23,392 bases of DNA from the IMG/VR virus record IMGVR_UViG_3300046009_006193, positions 1-23,392 of that record. One strand, 5' to 3'. Source of the DNA: a virus. The notes beneath the pieces were generated by a model. The model was not told the DNA's origin. It was given only the letters and a program-made list of their open reading frames with translations, and ran no database searches. Within the stretch, counting starts at the first letter, position 1. The number at the start of each line of letters is the position of its first letter. Of the stretch, positions 10,360 through 19,901 are shown piece by piece. Made by a program: the position numbers and the translations under genes.

Positions 10360-12126
10360 TTATGCACCTCCTGCGGCTTGCCGGTCTGGCGTTCGGGGGG
10401 CGGTAGTGCTCTTTTCAAGATTGGCGTTGACTTTCTTTAATTCCCCAACAACTTCGTCTAAACCAGCCTTTAATTTATCTGCAACTTCCGGGTCGCGCTC
10501 GCTCCTATACCCAATAGCAGACTGCATTGTATTGGTGTAGGCTTCGCTTTCAGACTGCCCGAACAACATACGCCTAGCACTGTAATCAAAGCCTGCCGCA
10601 AATTGGTCCCAACTACCAGCACCAGCAGCCTGCATTTCTTCTTGTAATTTTGCCTTAGTTAAAGATACGCCGGGGGATTCTTCCGCGCCTGCATATAGGT
10701 TTTGTTCGGTTGACGAATCAGCAGCGCGGCGTATATCCCCCTCTTGCACAGACGGCAGGGCATTAGTGCGGGCGCGGCGTGACTCCACGCGCATAGCAAG
10801 TTCTTCCTCGCTAGTCGCGCTTTCTGCAATTATCCTGTCAACGCCGGTGGACATTGTAGACGTAACATCAAGAATCATATTGCGAACAGGGCCGCTAACT
10901 TCGCTGGGGAGCGCAGATTTATCTAGGTATTCCGCGCCCAACTTGGCATTGCTTTGTAGCATCTGAATCTGTTGATAAAGACCTAGCTTTTCACCATCTT
11001 CGCCAACGTTGTATTTCTTACCCGCGCCACTATCGAAAAACTCAAATATCTCTTTTATGAATGCCCGCATACCAGTTGCGCTACGTTCGCCGGTCGCATC
11101 ATCTGTTTCTTGTGTGCTTTGCGAAAAGAGTGCAGCCGTCTCTTGGATGTCATAACCGTAGCCACTGGCAAATTTGAGCAAGCCGGGTACTGTGGAAGAA
11201 ACGGCAGCGGGAGAGCTAAGGCGTGAGTTCATCCCCACGCCTTCTAGGATACCTTGGGCAGCGTCCGCATTATTGGTTTTCATGCCAGCCATAACGGATA
11301 GGACACCCGCAGTACCGGCCTGCAAGTCTCCCGGCGTTGCGCGGTTAAGTTCCGCTTGCTGTTCCACGGCTGCAAGCGTAGCGTCGATATCGCCACCGCT
11401 TGCGCTTAGTCCAGATGCTACTGCGCTTTGAACGTCGAGAATAGGCAGATTGGTTTTTTGCGAAATGGCAATGCCACCTTGCACAGCCCGCAAGCCATTT
11501 TCCGCATCAACAACAGGGTCGCCAGTAACCGCTATGTTTTGAACAATAGCAGCCTCCGCACCCTCAACGGATGCAAACTTTTCTGCCTGTTTTTTTGACA
11601 ATGCTTCAAGTGCTTCCATTTCAGACGTTATCAATTTGATTGCGCCCGCCACACCAATGCCCAAGCCCAAGCCCGCAACCAAAGACTTTGCACCCGCAAG
11701 CAATCCCGTAAACGTGCTAGTCCCTGCACCCTTTAGGCTTGTGAAGGATTGTCGTAGCTTGCCGTTATCGTTGATTGCAATACCCGTCTGCGTAGACAGC
11801 CTATTGTACTCTACCGATAGCTGATTGGACTCTTGCCGCAATTGCTGGAACGTGGTTGTGTTTGTGGTGGCAATTTCTTTTAGCGTCTTGATCTTCGCCG
11901 CTAGCCGCTCGTTAGCTTCGCGCAACTTATCGGCGGATGTTTTCGCATCATCCGCGCCCTTTTTCATCTTCGCGCCCATATCAACGGATTGCTTGCCCGT
12001 CTCTTTGGATTGCTTGGCGATTTCCTCTAGGCTCTTGTCAATCTTTTCATTCGCAGACGTAGCATCCGCCGCAGCTTTCACTACGCTCGCAGCATCGCCC
12101 TGAAATGTCACCTTCGCTACTGACAC
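10360..12126 (-). CDS. Tail tape measure protein
   Basis: This 588-aa protein begins with GTG at 12126, with GGAAGG upstream. Residues about 28-115 are highly charged with a heptad pattern (KSLEEIAKQSKETGKQSVDM, DKLREANERLAAKIKTLKE), a long coiled coil. A glycine-rich hydrophobic region follows (about 141-166, LLAGAKSLVAGLGLGIGVAGA), a usual membrane-inserting part of tape measures. The remainder is alpha-helical and rich in Ala and Gln. The gene follows the frameshifted tail chaperone, the standard arrangement. Tape measures set tail length at roughly 0.15 nm per residue, so the tail would be about 90 nm, a moderately short siphovirus tail. No peptidoglycan hydrolase domain is visible. Confidence 0.8.
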   Translation of the reverse strand: MSVAKVTFQGDAASVVKAAADATSANEKIDKSLEEIAKQSKETGKQSVDMGAKMKKGADDAKTSADKLREANERLAAKIKTLKEIATTNTTTFQQLRQESNQLSVEYNRLSTQTGIAINDNGKLRQSFTSLKGAGTSTFTGLLAGAKSLVAGLGLGIGVAGAIKLITSEMEALEALSKKQAEKFASVEGAEAAIVQNIAVTGDPVVDAENGLRAVQGGIAISQKTNLPILDVQSAVASGLSASGGDIDATLAAVEQQAELNRATPGDLQAGTAGVLSVMAGMKTNNADAAQGILEGVGMNSRLSSPAAVSSTVPGLLKFASGYGYDIQETAALFSQSTQETDDATGERSATGMRAFIKEIFEFFDSGAGKKYNVGEDGEKLGLYQQIQMLQSNAKLGAEYLDKSALPSEVSGPVRNMILDVTSTMSTGVDRIIAESATSEEELAMRVESRRARTNALPSVQEGDIRRAADSSTEQNLYAGAEESPGVSLTKAKLQEEMQAAGAGSWDQFAAGFDYSARRMLFGQSESEAYTNTMQSAIGYRSERDPEVADKLKAGLDEVVGELKKVNANLEKSTTAPRTPDRQAAGGA

Positions 12127-12132
12127 GCTTGC

Positions 12133-13055
12133 CTACCTTCCGCGCCGTTGCACTATCTGCACCGGCGGAGCATTCCTATGGTCAACCTGTTCAATCGCGT
12201 ACCATGCAATCTCCGCCATGCTGGGCGGAAGCTGCCTCATGCCGCCACGCCACCATTCATAGTTGCGCCGGGCGTTGCTTGTTTTTTTTTACGGGACAAT
12301 TCAATCCATGTGGGCAAGTCAACCGTGGCGTTTAGCACTTCTTCCGCTATGCCCTCGGGCAGCAATCCAAGTATCTCGCACTCAGTTGCGCCTAGCCGGT
12401 AATTCGTGAACAACGCCCGCAAGGCGCATTCAATCTTTTCGTGGAAGTCAAACGTTACGTCATCTTCTTCCCTGTCAATCGCAGCCTTGCCAGCAATTAT
12501 CAGGTTGTCCCACCACAGTTCGGCTATGCGCCATAGCTCGCTGTATTGGTGTTCAACGCCATCGCTTACCCAAAGCCCGGATTCCCGGTCTAACCGCGTC
12601 CGCTTGGGTAACGCCTGCCCGCCAAGGATATGACCGCTTGGCGTTTCAACGATTGCGCGAGCAACCGGAACCGTCCATAGCTTGCCGTCTCCCAAGCGAA
12701 CAGGATGGCCCCTAAGCACTCGCGCACGCGCAAGGCTACCTGCACTGGGCTTTGCGCCACGAATCCAGCCCACAAAGATTCTAGGCCCACTGTCAGAATC
12801 GCCAGCCACGTTCACAATCACGGGCGGCACTTCCTGCCAATCCTGAATCTTAGGCCGGAACCCGCCAGCGTCCGCCGGGACAGAATCGCGCAACCAAATC
12901 ACCACGCCAGCCCCACACCCATCCGGCCCGCGTGTAGTCCCGCAAAAGTCCACAATGCCACCATCGAAAGCATAGCCAAGCCCAAGCTGCAACAATTGCA
13001 ACGGGTCGGGCTTCTTTTCTAAGCCTTCGATAAAGTAAAGAAAACCGTAATCCAT
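12133..13055 (-). CDS. Tail assembly chaperone long form by -1 ribosomal frameshift (GT-like)
   Basis: After the nine A residues at 12290-12282, the zero frame stops at 12237. A one-base backward shift instead continues for 49 codons to a TAG at 12133-12135. The extension includes NYEWWRGGMRQLPPSMAEIAW and ends VQIVQRRGR. It fills what would otherwise be a 110-nt gap before the tape measure start, ending 6 nt from that GTG. The +1 frame stops within nine codons of the slip site. Tail chaperone genes just upstream of tape measures make a long form this way in lambda (G and GT). The predicted product is about 307 aa. The amount made is unknown. Confidence 0.75.
12237..13055 (-). CDS. Tail assembly chaperone, short form (G-like)
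   Basis: This zero-frame product has 272 residues. The N-terminus (YGFLYFIEGLEKKPDPLQLLQLGLGYAFDGGIVDF) is followed by charged and beta-rich segments. The later part (FHEKIECALRALFTNYRLGATECEILGLLPEGIAEEVLNATVDLPTW) is helical. It lies between the tail tube candidate and the tape measure gene, the position of the tail chaperone, which coats the tape measure during tail assembly and is absent from the virion. Residues 256-258 are encoded by AAA AAA AAA, the slippery site. It is longer than lambda G (140 aa), so the N-terminal half may have an extra role. I recognise no enzyme motif. Confidence 0.65.
   Translation of the reverse strand: MDYGFLYFIEGLEKKPDPLQLLQLGLGYAFDGGIVDFCGTTRGPDGCGAGVVIWLRDSVPADAGGFRPKIQDWQEVPPVIVNVAGDSDSGPRIFVGWIRGAKPSAGSLARARVLRGHPVRLGDGKLWTVPVARAIVETPSGHILGGQALPKRTRLDRESGLWVSDGVEHQYSELWRIAELWWDNLIIAGKAAIDREEDDVTFDFHEKIECALRALFTNYRLGATECEILGLLPEGIAEEVLNATVDLPTWIELSRKKKQATPGATMNGGVAA
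12282..12290 (-). promoter_or_regulatory. Slippery A9 frameshift site
   Basis: Nine consecutive A residues in the mRNA, read as AAA AAA AAA in the zero frame and followed by C, contain the heptamer A AAA AAA, which satisfies the X XXY YYZ rule for -1 slippage. The position, 45 nt before the zero-frame stop, is typical of tail chaperone genes. A possible 5-bp GGCGG/CCGCC stem lies about 40 nt downstream, probably too far away to act as a stimulator. Confidence 0.7.
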
Positions 13056-13063
13056 TGGTGCGC

Positions 13064-13984
13064 CTAGCTGATTGCGGAAGTGGTGTCAATCGTCACAACA
13101 GCATTCGTGCCGTCATCAATACCTTCAAGCACAAGGGTTGCCGGGGCATCCTCGTTGCCGCTGGAATCGGTATTCTCGATGTGGGCAAAGCACGCCATTG
13201 AAAACTTGATGTGCTCCGCAGTTGCCGCCGCAACAAAGGTGCTGCCCTTTGCCCGCTTGCGGAACCAGCCGTAGGTGTTAGCCTGCGTACCAGCCGCGCC
13301 TAGTGCGGGGATAATAGAAGCTGCCAACCATCCCGCCGTGAATCCTTCAATGCGGATGGTGGGCAGGTATTGGCGGATGCTGCACCGCGTAGGAATAGGG
13401 AACCCATCGCCCGCAACCCATTGCTCGGTTATACCAAAGTCCACCGATACCCGCGTAATGCCGGTCAAGGCAACGTTGCCTACCGTCCAAGGGCCAATGG
13501 TGAACCGCTGATCATCGTCCGGGTCAAAGGTGGGAAGCGCGGCGTTGTCTGCAATCGTGAAAGGTAGCGTTGTGCCGTTGCTCGATATCGGCAGGATATC
13601 CGCCTGTATCACCGCATCCTCTTCTTGCCCGCACGAAACGTTTCGGCAAATCATCATGCCCGCAGGGACAGCAAAGGAACGGTGCGTGCTGCCGCTGGCA
13701 TACACGCCGCCCGTTACGCGCTCTGCCATGTACTGGGTATAGCCGCTTGTCCAGCTTGCAAGATTCTGGTACGGGTTGGCAGACACACCCTTATCCAGCA
13801 CCGCCGCCACTTGCCGCGAGGTGAACCCGAACATCGGCTGGGCTTTCTTCACGCTCGCATACGTTGCCGTGGCAAGGTTAGCAGGGTCACGGTTAGTCTC
13901 AATGCCCATCATTACCTTTTGGGCGGTAACGTCCGAAATCACCACATCATCCAGCTTCACCATATGTCCAGTAAAGATGCTCAT
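13064..13984 (-). CDS. Major tail tube protein candidate
   Basis: This 306-aa protein is complete, with no signal peptide. It is rich in beta-type sequence and has a C-terminal segment (APATLVLEGIDDGTNAVVTIDTTSAIS) similar in style to tail tube proteins with an extra Ig-like end. The region NVALTGITRVSVDFGITEQW is a typical amphipathic strand series. It lies just upstream of the tail chaperone and downstream of the tail-completion gene, which is the place of lambda gene V. It should polymerise around the tape measure to form the tail tube. Assignment is mainly by gene order and size. Confidence 0.65.
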   Translation of the reverse strand: MSIFTGHMVKLDDVVISDVTAQKVMMGIETNRDPANLATATYASVKKAQPMFGFTSRQVAAVLDKGVSANPYQNLASWTSGYTQYMAERVTGGVYASGSTHRSFAVPAGMMICRNVSCGQEEDAVIQADILPISSNGTTLPFTIADNAALPTFDPDDDQRFTIGPWTVGNVALTGITRVSVDFGITEQWVAGDGFPIPTRCSIRQYLPTIRIEGFTAGWLAASIIPALGAAGTQANTYGWFRKRAKGSTFVAAATAEHIKFSMACFAHIENTDSSGNEDAPATLVLEGIDDGTNAVVTIDTTSAIS

Positions 13985-14517: not shown

Positions 14518-15027
14518 CTATGCGTCCCCTACGCCCATCAATTCACACCAAAAGCCCCACCGCAAATCAAACGTTCCAACGGCATCGCTTGCCGTTACGC
14601 GCTCTAACTCTTCATCATCAAATTCCGGCCCTATCATTTCCTCAACCGTGCGGAATTGCACATAGCTAGGGTCAAGGGCCAGCGTCATAAACTCTTCTTT
14701 GATTGCGCGGATGGATTCCATGAATTCGGTTAACATTTCCGTCATGTTGCCCGCGCTCGTTAGCGTGCCGTGGAATACCAGATACACGCGGCCCGTGGGC
14801 CATGTGTTCCAATGCGTCCAGCCTTGCCGCTCTATACGAATGCCTTCGCTCTGCAAGATGCAGCCATTGGCCGTGAATTCATCCTTGTGCGCACACTCAA
14901 CCCATACCCGCGCCAATGCAGCCGCAGCCGGGTCTACTTCACCATCCATGCCCGTCCATTCCTGAAAGGCTTCGCACTCGCTAACCATTTCAGCAACCCG
15001 GTTCATTAGTGTAAGTTCGGGACTCAC
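14518..15027 (-). CDS. Tail terminator-like or minor tail protein
   Basis: This 169-aa acidic protein starts with GTG at 15027, overlapping the upstream stop as GTGA, with AGGAG 9 nt before. A second start, ATG eight codons later, is possible. It alternates helical and strand segments (RIERQGWTHWNTWPTGRVYLVFHGTL, followed by MTEMLTEFMESIRAIKEEF), fitting the alpha-beta fold of tail terminator proteins such as lambda gpU. It lies between the head-completion and tail-completion genes, where such a protein would be expected. No diagnostic motif was seen, so the function is inferred from place and size. Confidence 0.5.
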   Translation of the reverse strand: MSPELTLMNRVAEMVSECEAFQEWTGMDGEVDPAAAALARVWVECAHKDEFTANGCILQSEGIRIERQGWTHWNTWPTGRVYLVFHGTLTSAGNMTEMLTEFMESIRAIKEEFMTLALDPSYVQFRTVEEMIGPEFDDEELERVTASDAVGTFDLRWGFWCELMGVGDA

Positions 15028-15377
15028 CGGCCCATTCTCCTAGCCACCTGCATTTCACGTAGCTTTATCGTTACCCGCCACAACCCGCCGCCCGTGGTAT
15101 TCGCCTGCATAACGGTATAGGTATTGCCGCCATACTCAACGCGCCAACCTTTTTGGGGTAGCCCACCCGCCACAGCATCGGGCAACATGTCCACCGTGAG
15201 GCTCTGCGTATAGTCAACCGTCTCGCTCGCCTTGTCAGTCATTGTGGGCATTTCTAGCACCATTCCAACGCCGCTAATCGTCTGGTTGGAAAGGTTCACC
15301 CAAGAAAGCGTTTCACCGAATACGGATACCAAATCCTCACCGGCAATCACTTGGAATTCGTCGCTAAAATTGCTCAC
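15024..15377 (-). CDS. Head-tail completion protein (FII-like)
   Basis: This 117-aa protein has the same length as lambda gpFII and similar end features: GGLPQKGWRVEYGGNTYTVMQANTTGGGLWRVTIKLREMQ followed by a basic tail VARRMGR. Beta strands around 'GdtLt..g..Y.V' and a basic end are usual in phage head-tail attachment proteins of this family. It is the first gene after the capsid block and a strong hairpin. It likely closes the neck so that the tail can join. There is no close sequence match that I can confirm without a search. Confidence 0.55.
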   Translation of the reverse strand: MSNFSDEFQVIAGEDLVSVFGETLSWVNLSNQTISGVGMVLEMPTMTDKASETVDYTQSLTVDMLPDAVAGGLPQKGWRVEYGGNTYTVMQANTTGGGLWRVTIKLREMQVARRMGR

Positions 15378-15397
15378 TGAAATATCCCGTTGTTACA

Positions 15398-15433
15398 GTG
15401 GCGGGCGACACCCTTATCAGCATCGCCCGCCAC
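15398..15433 (-). terminator. Perfect 11-bp hairpin between head and tail gene blocks
   Basis: GTGGCGGGCGA (15398-15408) is exactly complementary to TCGCCCGCCAC (15423-15433) across a 14-nt loop. The mRNA hairpin is very G+C-rich and lies in the 76-nt gap after the capsid cement gene. No U-tract follows on either strand, so it is not a canonical intrinsic terminator. It may partly terminate, protect the upstream mRNA 3' end or be a processing site, allowing more capsid than tail mRNA. Confidence 0.55.
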
Positions 15434-15453
15434 CATCAACAATCAATCACCGC

Positions 15454-16173
15454 CTAGTAGCGGCCAAAGTGAACCCATACGCGGACAGCACCCGCAGGCG
15501 AGCCACCCGCCGTGGCCTGAACCACCTTGACATACGCACCCTTGCCAGCGGGCAATTGCTTGCCCGTGGTAGCGCGCAACTGCACGCCCACGGCATCGGG
15601 GGTCGTATTCGTGGTGGTAATGCGGGACAACTCGTTGTCATCCTCGTCGAAGAGACCAAGGATAAGCTGATCTTCCGAGGAGCCTACGGGCTGTTCGGTG
15701 ACCGTGCCGAAAAACAGCACATGGCTACCATTGACGTTATCCTCTGCGGCAATAACGTCATGCTCGGTAGCATCCGCATGGTCGAGGGTAATTCCGCGAG
15801 TGTGGCGCACAACAGGGTTGCGGCCCGCGAAACCTTCCACCATTGCCACAGACACCACAAGCTCGCCGGAAACCTTCGCGGCAACCGCACGGCCAATGTA
15901 GAAATCATCTACGCCGGTCGAAGTCGCTACGGCGGTAGACGCGCTGGCATCCCAGTAGATTTCGCTGCCTTGGCTGAAGGTAGTACCCGTCAACGCGGTA
16001 ACGTCAATCTCGCCCTCAGTGACAAGCTCGATGATGTCACCGATAGCGCAGGTCTGCGAACCCGTGAAAACGCCTACGCGCCCATCGGGCAGGCTAACAA
16101 TATCGCCGGGGGCCACGGCTGCCGTGGCGGTAATCCGCACGCGCCCCACTTCATTCTTCACAATCGCTTGCAT
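15454..16173 (-). CDS. Capsid cement/decoration protein (DUF2190-like N-terminus)
   Basis: The 239-aa protein has an N-terminal domain with the DUF2190 capsid-cement pattern: GRVRITATAAVAPGDIVSLPDGRVGVF..., followed by AIGDIIELVTEGEIDVTAL, YWDASASTAVATSTGVDDFYIGRAVAA and SGELVVSVAM. Such proteins bind the outer capsid surface and stabilise the expanded shell. Residues about 120-239 form a second beta-rich part (HVLFFGTVTEQ, GVQLRATTGKQLPAGKGAYVKVVQA) that is not part of the usual short form and may project from the capsid. It lies just after the capsid fusion gene, with AAAGG 8 nt before ATG, in keeping with lambda gene D. Confidence 0.75.
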   Translation of the reverse strand: MQAIVKNEVGRVRITATAAVAPGDIVSLPDGRVGVFTGSQTCAIGDIIELVTEGEIDVTALTGTTFSQGSEIYWDASASTAVATSTGVDDFYIGRAVAAKVSGELVVSVAMVEGFAGRNPVVRHTRGITLDHADATEHDVIAAEDNVNGSHVLFFGTVTEQPVGSSEDQLILGLFDEDDNELSRITTTNTTPDAVGVQLRATTGKQLPAGKGAYVKVVQATAGGSPAGAVRVWVHFGRY

Positions 16174-16240: not shown

Positions 16241-18448
16241 CTATGCTGCGCCGGTAGCCTTCAACACGCCGCGCCAGTCGAGAGCCTTGCAGCCAATCGT
16301 GTGCTGGATATCGTACCCAACGCCGAAACGGCCAACGGGAAGGGCCATCTTGCGCATCAACGGGCGACGATTACGCCCGCGCAGGTAGCCCACTTCGATG
16401 GTCGGGGTAGTCGTCGGGTTGGCGAACAGGAAGTAATTCGTTGCCGTGCCAGCGTAAGCCGTGCCGGTTTCGGGGTGAATCACGCCGTTTACGCCCACGC
16501 GATCATCCGCATGAATCTGGATACCAGCCGTGGCAAGCGGGTTAAACGTGCCGTTCTCGCTGGCGTTGTTGCGTTCAGCGGAGGTCAACAGAATCTGCGC
16601 AAGGAACTTCAAATCGTGAGGCACCACAAGGTGGGCAGCACGGATATTGAGGGGAATCTTTTGCTTCCCTTCCTGCTTGTACTGCTTGCCCATAGCCGTG
16701 ATTGCAGCCTGCAACGTGCTAGACGCAAGTGCGCTGCCCGTAGTCAACAGGTTGTTGTGATCGGCATGGAACAGGGCCACGCTATCGCGCATGGAAGCAT
16801 TCGCCAGCAACGTAGCGTATACAAGGTCGGGGCGCAGACGGTTGGCGGCGTTGCCGATTTCCATGATGGTGCGAAGAATCGCGCCAAGGTCATCATTGGC
16901 AATCGTGATTTCGTCCACTTGGAATTGCTTGGCGTAGCGCACAACCTGATAGCTTTCCTTGCCGTCGCCCATGCTGGCATGGTCAGCCGTGCCACCTTCA
17001 GGGGTGGGGGAAAGCGTGGGCACCTTGTCGAGTGCGCCACGGTCCACAGTGCGGTAGTCCGCCACATCGGTGTCAAACGTCAAGCCAACAGTGGAATCTT
17101 CCGCCTCATCGAACGCCTGCATAAGCATACGGTCAACCACCACACCCAACACGTTGTTGAACGAGGTGCTGGAGAACGCCTGCTGTACGCGGGCTTCGCG
17201 GCCAATCTCAGGCTGCATACGGTCAAGGCGGATGCACTGTTCCGCGAGGTCCAGCAAGCCCATACCGTTGAAGCGGCCCGCAGCGTCCGCCACGCGCTCG
17301 CGCTCTGCACGCTGAGAAACCGTAGCGCGGGGGTCAACGTAGGCAACGCCCGCGCTCTGGCACACAGCCGCAGCGAACACGTTTGCATCGGTCGGGGTAT
17401 TACCCGCGCCCGTGTTGATGTTCGGCGCAACCGGCGCAGTGCGGCTGGCGCGAACGCTGGCAAGGAACAGGCCATTAGCCTGTTCCACAGTCAATGCGCC
17501 GTCAATGGCACGCTGCAACACATCGGCGGGGATATCCGGTCCCGCAGCCTGCCGGATAGCGGCAACCCGCGCACGTTCCGCAGCCACCGCATTGCGGCGA
17601 ATGGCGGCAACGTCTACGCGCTTGGGCGCAGACTGTTCAACCGGAAGCGGCTCGGTTGCCGGTTCCGTTTCGGGGGCAGGGGTTTCCTCCGGCTCTTCGC
17701 CGGGGTCTGCCGCCTGCAACTGGGCCACAGCGGTATCAAACGCCGCAGCCTGTTCAACCGTCAATGCCGCACGCGCCTGCAATACCGCAGCCGCATCGGC
17801 ATCGGGGGCCACTAGCCCCATCTGCACAAGTACACTCTTAGTCCAGTCCATTTTGCTAACACTCCTATTGTTCCTGTTTGCCGCTGCTTGCCGCGCCGCT
17901 ATACGGGCGTTATCATCGGCTCCAAACACCACTAGACTCACTTCGATAGGCTTCCACGCGGTATTGATACGCAATGCCCGCGTGCCAGCCGTATACGTTT
18001 TTCCTTCAACCGTGGCAGTCTCGCCCGGTTCAATCGTTTGGGATGCAATCAACTGCGCACCAATACTCACGCGGCTAATATGGCCCTCTTTAACCCGTAT
18101 CCATTTGCTTTCGGTTTCGGAGTCTGAAGAGAATTCCAGCCGCCCTCTAAGGGCCATTTCGACAACCCGCAAATTAACCACGCTGCCAAGCACTGAATCA
18201 GTGGTGTAGCTTTCATGGTCACTGATAAGTGAAACCTTATCCACGGGTTGATACCCGCTCATAAGGAAGATGTTGTCGATGTACTCCATACGCACATAGT
18301 CAAAAACCACGCTAGGAGTAGAGCTTTCAGTGACAATCACAGCCTCAACGCTACGGGTCTCAACAGAAATACTTTCGCGCTGCAAGACAATGCTCATAGT
18401 CACATCGGCCATTACGGGCTTGCTGTGTTGCTCGATAATGTTAATCAT
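16241..18448 (-). CDS. Prohead protease / scaffold / major capsid protein fusion
   Basis: The start at 18448 overlaps the portal stop in ATGATTAA; an upstream in-frame ATG at 18550 would overlap the portal by 110 nt. The 735-aa product has three parts. Residues 1-199 are an S78-type serine protease with SDHESYTTDSVLG (H78), EGHISRVSIGA (S128) and IEVSLVVFGADDNARI (169-183). Residues 200 to about 400 are scaffold-like, with ALTVEQAAAFDTAV, a Pro/Glu-rich linker and a second ALTVEQA. The C-terminal part is a Mu gpT/HK97-fold capsid domain (YQVVRYAKQFQVDEITIANDDLGA; ending IGCKALDWRGV). Protease-capsid fusions are a known phage family. Self-cleavage should release capsid subunits. An internal start is described separately. 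Confidence 0.85.
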   Translation of the reverse strand: MINIIEQHSKPVMADVTMSIVLQRESISVETRSVEAVIVTESSTPSVVFDYVRMEYIDNIFLMSGYQPVDKVSLISDHESYTTDSVLGSVVNLRVVEMALRGRLEFSSDSETESKWIRVKEGHISRVSIGAQLIASQTIEPGETATVEGKTYTAGTRALRINTAWKPIEVSLVVFGADDNARIAARQAAANRNNRSVSKMDWTKSVLVQMGLVAPDADAAAVLQARAALTVEQAAAFDTAVAQLQAADPGEEPEETPAPETEPATEPLPVEQSAPKRVDVAAIRRNAVAAERARVAAIRQAAGPDIPADVLQRAIDGALTVEQANGLFLASVRASRTAPVAPNINTGAGNTPTDANVFAAAVCQSAGVAYVDPRATVSQRAERERVADAAGRFNGMGLLDLAEQCIRLDRMQPEIGREARVQQAFSSTSFNNVLGVVVDRMLMQAFDEAEDSTVGLTFDTDVADYRTVDRGALDKVPTLSPTPEGGTADHASMGDGKESYQVVRYAKQFQVDEITIANDDLGAILRTIMEIGNAANRLRPDLVYATLLANASMRDSVALFHADHNNLLTTGSALASSTLQAAITAMGKQYKQEGKQKIPLNIRAAHLVVPHDLKFLAQILLTSAERNNASENGTFNPLATAGIQIHADDRVGVNGVIHPETGTAYAGTATNYFLFANPTTTPTIEVGYLRGRNRRPLMRKMALPVGRFGVGYDIQHTIGCKALDWRGVLKATGAA
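17849..17866 (-). promoter_or_regulatory. Internal ribosome binding site and ATG for scaffold-capsid form
   Basis: Within the fusion gene, AGGAG (17866-17862) lies 10 nt before an in-frame ATG (17851, residue 200) exactly where the protease ends and the scaffold-like part begins. Translation here would produce a 536-aa scaffold-capsid protein without protease. This resembles the nested C/Nu3 arrangement of lambda. It would help supply many capsid subunits per protease. Confidence 0.55.
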
Positions 18449-19901
18449 CTTCTTTGCCCTTCTTTGGTGCATCATCGCCGTCATCTTCCGGTATCTGTTC
18501 GGCTGGCACCGTGCTACGCAGGAACGGATGCACGCCGCCCATGCTTTCAACTTGCTCTATTTCCGCCTGCAACTCGGATACCAATTGGTCGTAATCAATG
18601 CCGCGCTCTGCGCAAGCACGGTGAAGCGTGGTAAGCCCATTCTCCAATTCCGTAGCCTGCCCATTGGCTTCTTTTTGCGGGTCAACATTGGGTTTCTTAG
18701 ACCATACCCATTGGACTTTCATATCCTTGGGGCGGGGTCCAATAAGCCCCATATTCACGCACTCAGCAAAGAAGCGGGCGAAGATAACGTTGAGAATCTT
18801 GCGCTCTATCTTGCCCCGGTCGAACATAAGGCTTTGCTCATATTCGCCGTCTGTCCAGCGCATCGAGGAGTAGTTGTACCCCGCGCTATCCGCCTTGATA
18901 TTGAGCAAGGGGATATTCCGCGCACGGCCAATCTCGCGGAGTCTTTCATCACGATATTCAACGTGATTCACGCCGGGTTGTTCCGGCTTCAATTGCTTGA
19001 TTGAATAACCAACTGGCGCAGCCGTCATGCTGCCGGTCTTGATTTCCCACTTAGTCCAAGTGCTCAGGTCCACCGGTTCCGGGCTAAATTCGCCGCCGTT
19101 GTTTGGGGATTCCAGCACAGCACCGCCAAGCGTGGCGGCAATCTTCATAGACTCCAGCACATGCTTGTCTAGGTCGCGCAGGTCTGTAATCGTCTGCAAT
19201 GCGCACGCCGCCAAAGGCGCACCGCGCAACTGGCCCGGCTCCGCAGGCTCATAGTAGTGCAGCATGTCCGCAGCGGGGATTGCCGTGGTGGCAAAACTAA
19301 GGGCATCGTCTATCGGGTCGCCAACGTGGTAGCGAATTACGCGCCCAGTAGCATCAATCTCAACACCCTCTTGCATATACGGGTCCAGCCCGCCAACGCC
19401 GGGATTCTTCACCCGGTTAGGGTGAACGCTCTTTAAGCGCAGGCTGGGCAAGTCAATCGGCACCATAGGGTTGGCCGTTACGTATTGCTCAAAGATATCG
19501 CCATGATTCCACAAAAGCGGCCCAAGCCACATGCGCAACTTATCGGGGCCATGCTCGCGCCCTTCAAAGTCGCAATACTCGTTCCACCACCGGCCCCAGA
19601 TGGATTCCAGCTTGTTGGCATAATCGGTTTCTTGCGTTACAACACGCACCTGCGGCCCCGCCTGCCCAACCATGCGGGCGGCGTAGGAATTAACCACACC
19701 CTGCAATACCGGGTTATTGCGGTATTCCAATTCGATACGCGGGGTAAGCACGGGGCGTTCCGCTTCCAGCGCAGCATTCATGCTTTCGCCGGTCGCGCCC
19801 ACGTAGCTTGCAGAGTTGATGCGATTGGTAAGCGAGCCAAACCAGCCGGTCAGGTTCGCAACCGCCTTGCCGATATATCCTTGATTACGGGACGTAGCCA
19901 T
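18441..19901 (-). CDS. Portal protein, lambda gpB family
   Basis: This 486-aa protein matches the lambda portal pattern: early NPVLQGVVNSYAARMVGQAGPQVRV, then WGRWWNEYCDFEGREHGPDKLRMW and GDIFEQYV, followed by LRLKSVHPNRVKNPG, MQEGVEIDATGRVIRYHVGDP, MLHYYEPAEPGQLRGAPLAACALQTITDLRDL and NSAGYNYSSMRWTDG-like sequence (ADSAGYNYSSMRWTDGEYEQS). Portals form the dodecameric ring at one capsid vertex through which DNA is pumped. Length agrees with the family. The C-terminus is acidic and lysine-rich (EDDGDDAPKKGKEDD). Its start overlaps the gpW-like gene by 17 nt, and its end overlaps the capsid fusion gene by 8 nt. Confidence 0.88.
   Translation of the reverse strand: MATSRNQGYIGKAVANLTGWFGSLTNRINSASYVGATGESMNAALEAERPVLTPRIELEYRNNPVLQGVVNSYAARMVGQAGPQVRVVTQETDYANKLESIWGRWWNEYCDFEGREHGPDKLRMWLGPLLWNHGDIFEQYVTANPMVPIDLPSLRLKSVHPNRVKNPGVGGLDPYMQEGVEIDATGRVIRYHVGDPIDDALSFATTAIPAADMLHYYEPAEPGQLRGAPLAACALQTITDLRDLDKHVLESMKIAATLGGAVLESPNNGGEFSPEPVDLSTWTKWEIKTGSMTAAPVGYSIKQLKPEQPGVNHVEYRDERLREIGRARNIPLLNIKADSAGYNYSSMRWTDGEYEQSLMFDRGKIERKILNVIFARFFAECVNMGLIGPRPKDMKVQWVWSKKPNVDPQKEANGQATELENGLTTLHRACAERGIDYDQLVSELQAEIEQVESMGGVHPFLRSTVPAEQIPEDDGDDAPKKGKEDD

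Follow-up and report, generated by a model that had tools for sequence, protein, structure and literature searches.

The stretch of viral DNA analysed here, called the window, has 23,392 nucleotides (IMG/VR record IMGVR_UViG_3300046009_006193) and probably carries a ribosomal -1 frameshift site of the lambda G/GT type. Most long-tailed phages, like lambda, use -1 slippage in tail building. Judging from the sequence, a run of nine A's in the gene that precedes the putative tape measure gene would yield, as a minor product, a fusion protein of about 307 amino acids; that this fusion is made by slippage in some form is highly probable. On the minus strand, a putative major tail protein gene is followed by an open reading frame of 272 amino acids and then, directly downstream, by the putative tape measure gene. 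The names tail chaperone, major tail protein and tape measure are putative throughout, and rest here on position, size and recoding layout. The features are the following:

13064..13984, minus strand: putative major tail protein, 306 aa, named by position (gp11 of phage S-CBS3, at the same place, has 310 aa)
12237..13055, minus strand: frame-0 ORF, 272 aa, G-like putative tail assembly chaperone, named by position
12282..12290, minus strand: A9 run, codons 256-258 (AAA AAA AAA) of the 272-aa ORF
12288-12282, minus strand: slippery heptamer A_AAA_AAA, in frame, inside the A9 run
12133..12282, minus strand: -1 extension, T-like part of the predicted fusion, 49 codons and TAG
12133..12240, minus strand: alternative separate ORF of 35 codons, with ATG at 12240-12238 in the -1 frame
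12203..12274, minus strand: possible stimulatory RNA, two predicted hairpins, -32.4 kcal/mol
10360..12126, minus strand: putative tape measure, 588 aa, GTG start, named by position and size, with a weak match to phrog_1885 (minor tail, E 0.058)

The slippery site lies near the 3' end of its gene: the frame-0 stop comes 14 codons past the heptamer. The -1 frame runs beyond this stop and stays open up to the start of the putative tape measure gene; from position 12282 its translation is TSNARRNYEWWRGGMRQLPPSMAEIAWYAIEQVDHRNAPPVQIVQRRGR, ending with the TAG at 12135-12133, which leaves 6 nucleotides before the GTG at 12126. In the +1 frame, a stop comes after 7 codons. The predicted fusion thus has 258 + 49 = 307 amino acids. 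The initial annotation had described the in-frame A9 with its heptamer, the 49 open codons and the 6-nucleotide gap, a +1 stop within nine codons and a long form of about 307 amino acids: recomputed coordinates and translations agree on every point, and all its coordinates and lengths are correct. Its statement that the extension lacks an independent start does not hold for most of the segment, since the ATG at 12240-12238 opens the last 35 of the 49 codons. This ATG overlaps the frame-0 TGA at 12239-12237 as ATGA, so that these 35 codons could form a separate, coupled ORF.

The model drawn from lambda is that -1 slippage occurs in a minority of ribosomes, that the part common to both products binds the tape measure, and that the domain added by the shift brings in the tail tube protein; the mechanism is conserved despite low sequence similarity (PMC5009743). 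Frameshifting is known to occur at the heptamer A_AAA_AAA, and was measured at 6-7% in two tail chaperone cassettes (PMC3711429). For the window, slippage, its ribosomal nature, the amounts made and the binding roles are inferred: most ribosomes would finish the 272-aa frame-0 protein, and a minority would slip one base back on the heptamer at 12288-12282, adding the 49-residue extension to give the fusion of about 307 amino acids. The roles would be those known from lambda, with tape measure binding by the frame-0 part and recruitment of the tail tube protein by the extension. The window shares with lambda G/GT the place directly upstream of the tape measure, a slippery site close to the 3' end of the gene, a -1 frame that continues open up to the tape measure and an extension added C-terminally. 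It differs by having A_AAA_AAA inside an A9 run, an extension of 49 amino acids, a 272-aa product with no detectable homology, and a frame-0 tail of 14 codons with its ATGA overlap.

The window's genes have 7,271 codons, and in-frame heptamers of the form X_XXY_YYZ, with Y being A or T, are rare among them: there are 5. Four of these are 219-446 codons away from the ends of their genes, and their -1 frames shut within 5-23 codons; the A9 site is the window's only heptamer close to a gene end with a -1 frame that passes the stop. A -1 frame is open for at least 49 codons at 5% of the codon positions of the window's genes, and the product of heptamer rarity and open-frame chance is, as a rough estimate, 1e-3 or less. 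Codon usage in the 49-codon extension, at 0.099 bits per codon, is intermediate: it exceeds that of 98.5% of the off-frame windows but ranks at the 6th percentile among true frames. The last 35 codons by themselves score 0.025 bits per codon, which is weak. Codon usage thus lends mild support to the extension. A second in-frame A_AAA_AAA is found at 11590-11596, within the putative tape measure gene, where the -1 frame closes after 8 codons.

A search by protein patterns gave two relatives that cover the site, the assemblies L002 and L003, and scans of genome contigs gave none. A third candidate, L102, with a 59% match to the extension, was rejected as spurious: no other window gene was convincingly matched in it, and its surroundings are unrelated. 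The region is the same in L002 as in the window, and the 35 differing positions over 10.8 kb indicate a separate assembly. L003, also a separate assembly, is the one diverged relative available at the site. The A9 run and all 49 residues of the extension are unchanged in both. The initial annotation had asked whether nine is the true length of the run and whether relatives keep the slippery site and the -1 frame: the length is nine in all three assemblies, one of them diverged, which makes a sequencing or assembly error unlikely, and both site and frame are kept, identically in L002 and in spite of divergence in L003.

The comparison with L003 gives 40 substitutions in the 765 nucleotides before A9 (about 5%), 35 of them at third positions, and 1 substitution in the 149 nucleotides from A9 to the next gene. 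That one, C>T at 12262 when read along the gene, alters the frame-0 protein (T265I) but not the -1 product (AAC>AAT). The deficit after A9 (binomial P about 0.002, Fisher P about 0.009) fits a segment that would be under constraint, but the near-identity may partly mark a recombination junction, because a different tape measure allele starts just downstream. That allele (positions 5930-7672 of L003) encodes 581 amino acids against 588 in the window, with about 50% amino acid identity, and it sits between flanks that are about 97-98% identical to the window: most of one gene has been exchanged. There is a second mosaic boundary, since 15024-16173 has 0.3-0.6% substitutions with respect to L003, and the genes on its downstream side have 4-5%.

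The layout found in the window is also found in distant siphophages. The head genes of the window are of lambda type, with a gpA-like terminase, a lambda portal and a protease/capsid fusion, and distant loci were gathered through a shared lambda-type portal or capsid, at about 25-34% identity. In 28 of them, the gene upstream of the tape measure has a slippery heptamer at its end, from which the -1 frame stays open as far as the tape measure; where a locus lacks annotation, a long ORF stands for the latter. The heptamers are A_AAA_AAC (21 loci), C_CCA_AAC (3), G_GGA_AAC (2), A_AAA_AAG (1) and A_AAA_AAA (1). The number 28 counts the loci that show the pattern, and is not a frequency among all loci: a mechanical pattern search gave 30 matches, from which L040, L170 and L182 were dropped as portal genes, and to which L018 was added. 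Nor are the 28 loci independent cases: a portal or capsid gene in common led to them, and there is some redundancy among them. Out-of-frame heptamers, used as a control, gave 9 and 18 matches versus 30 in frame; the control is weak because many of these are the same sites, A-runs reading as heptamers in several phases. Several of the frame-0 products or extensions in the comparison loci match known tail chaperone or tail families. The window departs from the 28 loci in two measures: 14 frame-0 codons follow the heptamer, versus 0-4, and the frame-0 product has 272 amino acids, versus 83-218 in 27 of the loci and 360, counted from the first start codon, in L064. The comparison loci that were fetched hold no homologues of the window's tail genes.

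Among these loci are the Roseobacter phages CRP-831 and CRP-406 and the IMG/VR loci L063 and L074, with a putative tail chaperone, whose lambda-type portals are about 25% identical to that of the window. All four have a short -1 extension (48-55 amino acids, against 49) that reaches the tape measure start, with A_AAA_AAC as heptamer. Unlike the window, they have a frame-0 product of 113-114 amino acids that stops right after the heptamer, and that of CRP-831 matches phrog_344, while the window's does not; neither part has detectable sequence similarity between these loci and the window. The Synechococcus phages S-CBS3 and S-LBS1, with Phage_TAC_4 and a DUF1799 extension, have the gene order of the window, a slippery heptamer and a -1 frame, and neighbours of comparable size: the major tail protein has 310 versus 306 amino acids, and the tape measure 586 versus 588. 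Their frame-0 product of 125-126 amino acids and extension of about 111-114 (DUF1799 in S-CBS3) are unlike those of the window. The IMG/VR locus L166, like the window, has an A9 run that reads as A_AAA_AAA ahead of a putative tape measure gene; it differs by a 114-aa extension and a 120-aa frame-0 product with its stop 3 codons past the site.

The 272-aa protein has no significant family match in Pfam, PHROGs or NCBIfam, including Phage_TAC_4 and PHROGs 313, 344 and 569, and tblastn against phages and plasmids gave no match. Profile comparison with 12 comparison chaperone groups was negative and of low power, two accepted groups being mutually unmatched. The initial annotation had proposed to look for T-like C-termini with the 49-residue extension: it matched nothing in Pfam and PHROGs, including DUF1799, phrog_337 and phrog_680, and hhalign against the short extensions of the comparison loci gave no match either. 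A match to phrog_11694 (E 0.53) was dropped, being absent from 30 related records. An AlphaFold model of a near-fusion, with two Lys for three at the junction, has a pLDDT of 34 and was set aside. The chaperone label of the 272-aa ORF is therefore positional, since neither part has detectable chaperone homology. Of the proposal of a tail chaperone of the lambda G/GT type, the reading as a -1 extension stands as the best supported. The 306-aa putative major tail protein also has no family match in profile searches.

Elsewhere in the window, the prohead protease and major capsid protein are apparently fused in a 769-aa ORF at 16241-18550, which matches NCBIfam NF045541 at 336 bits, under the curated cut-off of 525. 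A Peptidase M15 domain protein (Pfam PF08291), possibly an endolysin, is encoded at 1406-1996, and a small lipoprotein-like ORF adjoins it at 2162-2677.

Ribosomal frameshifting is not the sole route to the same fusion, since A9 is also a known slippage site for RNA polymerase. If the RNA polymerase added one A to the transcript, the resulting A10 would bring the -1 frame in frame. Bacterial RNA polymerase slips efficiently on runs of nine A's or T's (PMC5009743); programmed transcriptional realignment has been linked to A-runs longer than 7, and frameshifting in an A9 cassette was about 40% (PMC3711429). Moreover, the window and L166 have nine A's, versus 6-8 in most comparison loci. We nevertheless consider this route unlikely: the A6-A7, CCCAAAC and GGGAAAC sites of the comparison loci suggest that slippage at this position is usually ribosomal, and the phase of the A9 run is exactly the one needed for A_AAA_AAA. 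The distant viral contig L166 (4357-5051) is a second candidate for polymerase slippage at the position before the tape measure.

The ATGA overlap suggests another possibility, in which a separate protein of 35 amino acids is translated from the ATG at 12240-12238, coupled to the frame-0 stop, and no frameshift takes place. The ATG overlaps the TGA exactly, the codon support of the -1 frame upstream of this ATG is not independent of frame 0, and L116 also has ATGA at this place. Yet L116 carries a canonical A_AAA_AAC beside its ATGA, in most comparison loci the frame-0 stop has no start codon close to it and a shift is needed, and the codon support of the 35 codons is the weak value given above. 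Since this reading also leaves the window's only gene-end slippery heptamer unexplained, we find it quite unlikely. As for the possibility that the A9 run and the -1 frame are incidental, or that an assembly error masks a plain single ORF, it draws on the 5% of positions with a comparable open frame and on the proneness of A-runs to misassembly; the agreement of three assemblies, one diverged, and the rarity of finding the site, the open frame and the gene junction together, a combination that 28 distant loci share, make it highly improbable. We would give little credence to a bolder conjecture, in which the window holds a chaperone family with no detectable relatives and about twice the usual size, where RNA polymerase slippage on A9 determines the G:GT ratio, in part or entirely, and ATGA gives a third, separate T-like product.

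Ribosomal -1 frameshifting at the A9 site has points against it: the lack of chaperone homology, the 14-codon frame-0 tail, the unusual length, the ATGA start, and a single diverged relative with a possible recombination junction. The predicted downstream RNA structure counts on the same side: its first hairpin begins about 8 nucleotides past the heptamer, with a z-score of -1.2 against shuffled sequences, which is not significant. Rfam gave no match. On the other side are the site itself, the open -1 frame, conserved in the sister despite its divergence, and the recurrence of this layout in distant phages. Very probably, this locus adds to the well-known G/GT class with a protein too diverged to be recognized.

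The annotation of this uncultured phage lineage is thus to be corrected, as one product or coding segment is missing from it. The G/GT recoding layout would again mark a chaperone even where the protein has diverged beyond recognition, and the A9 run offers a natural case for asking whether transcriptional slippage can set a tail-assembly ratio.
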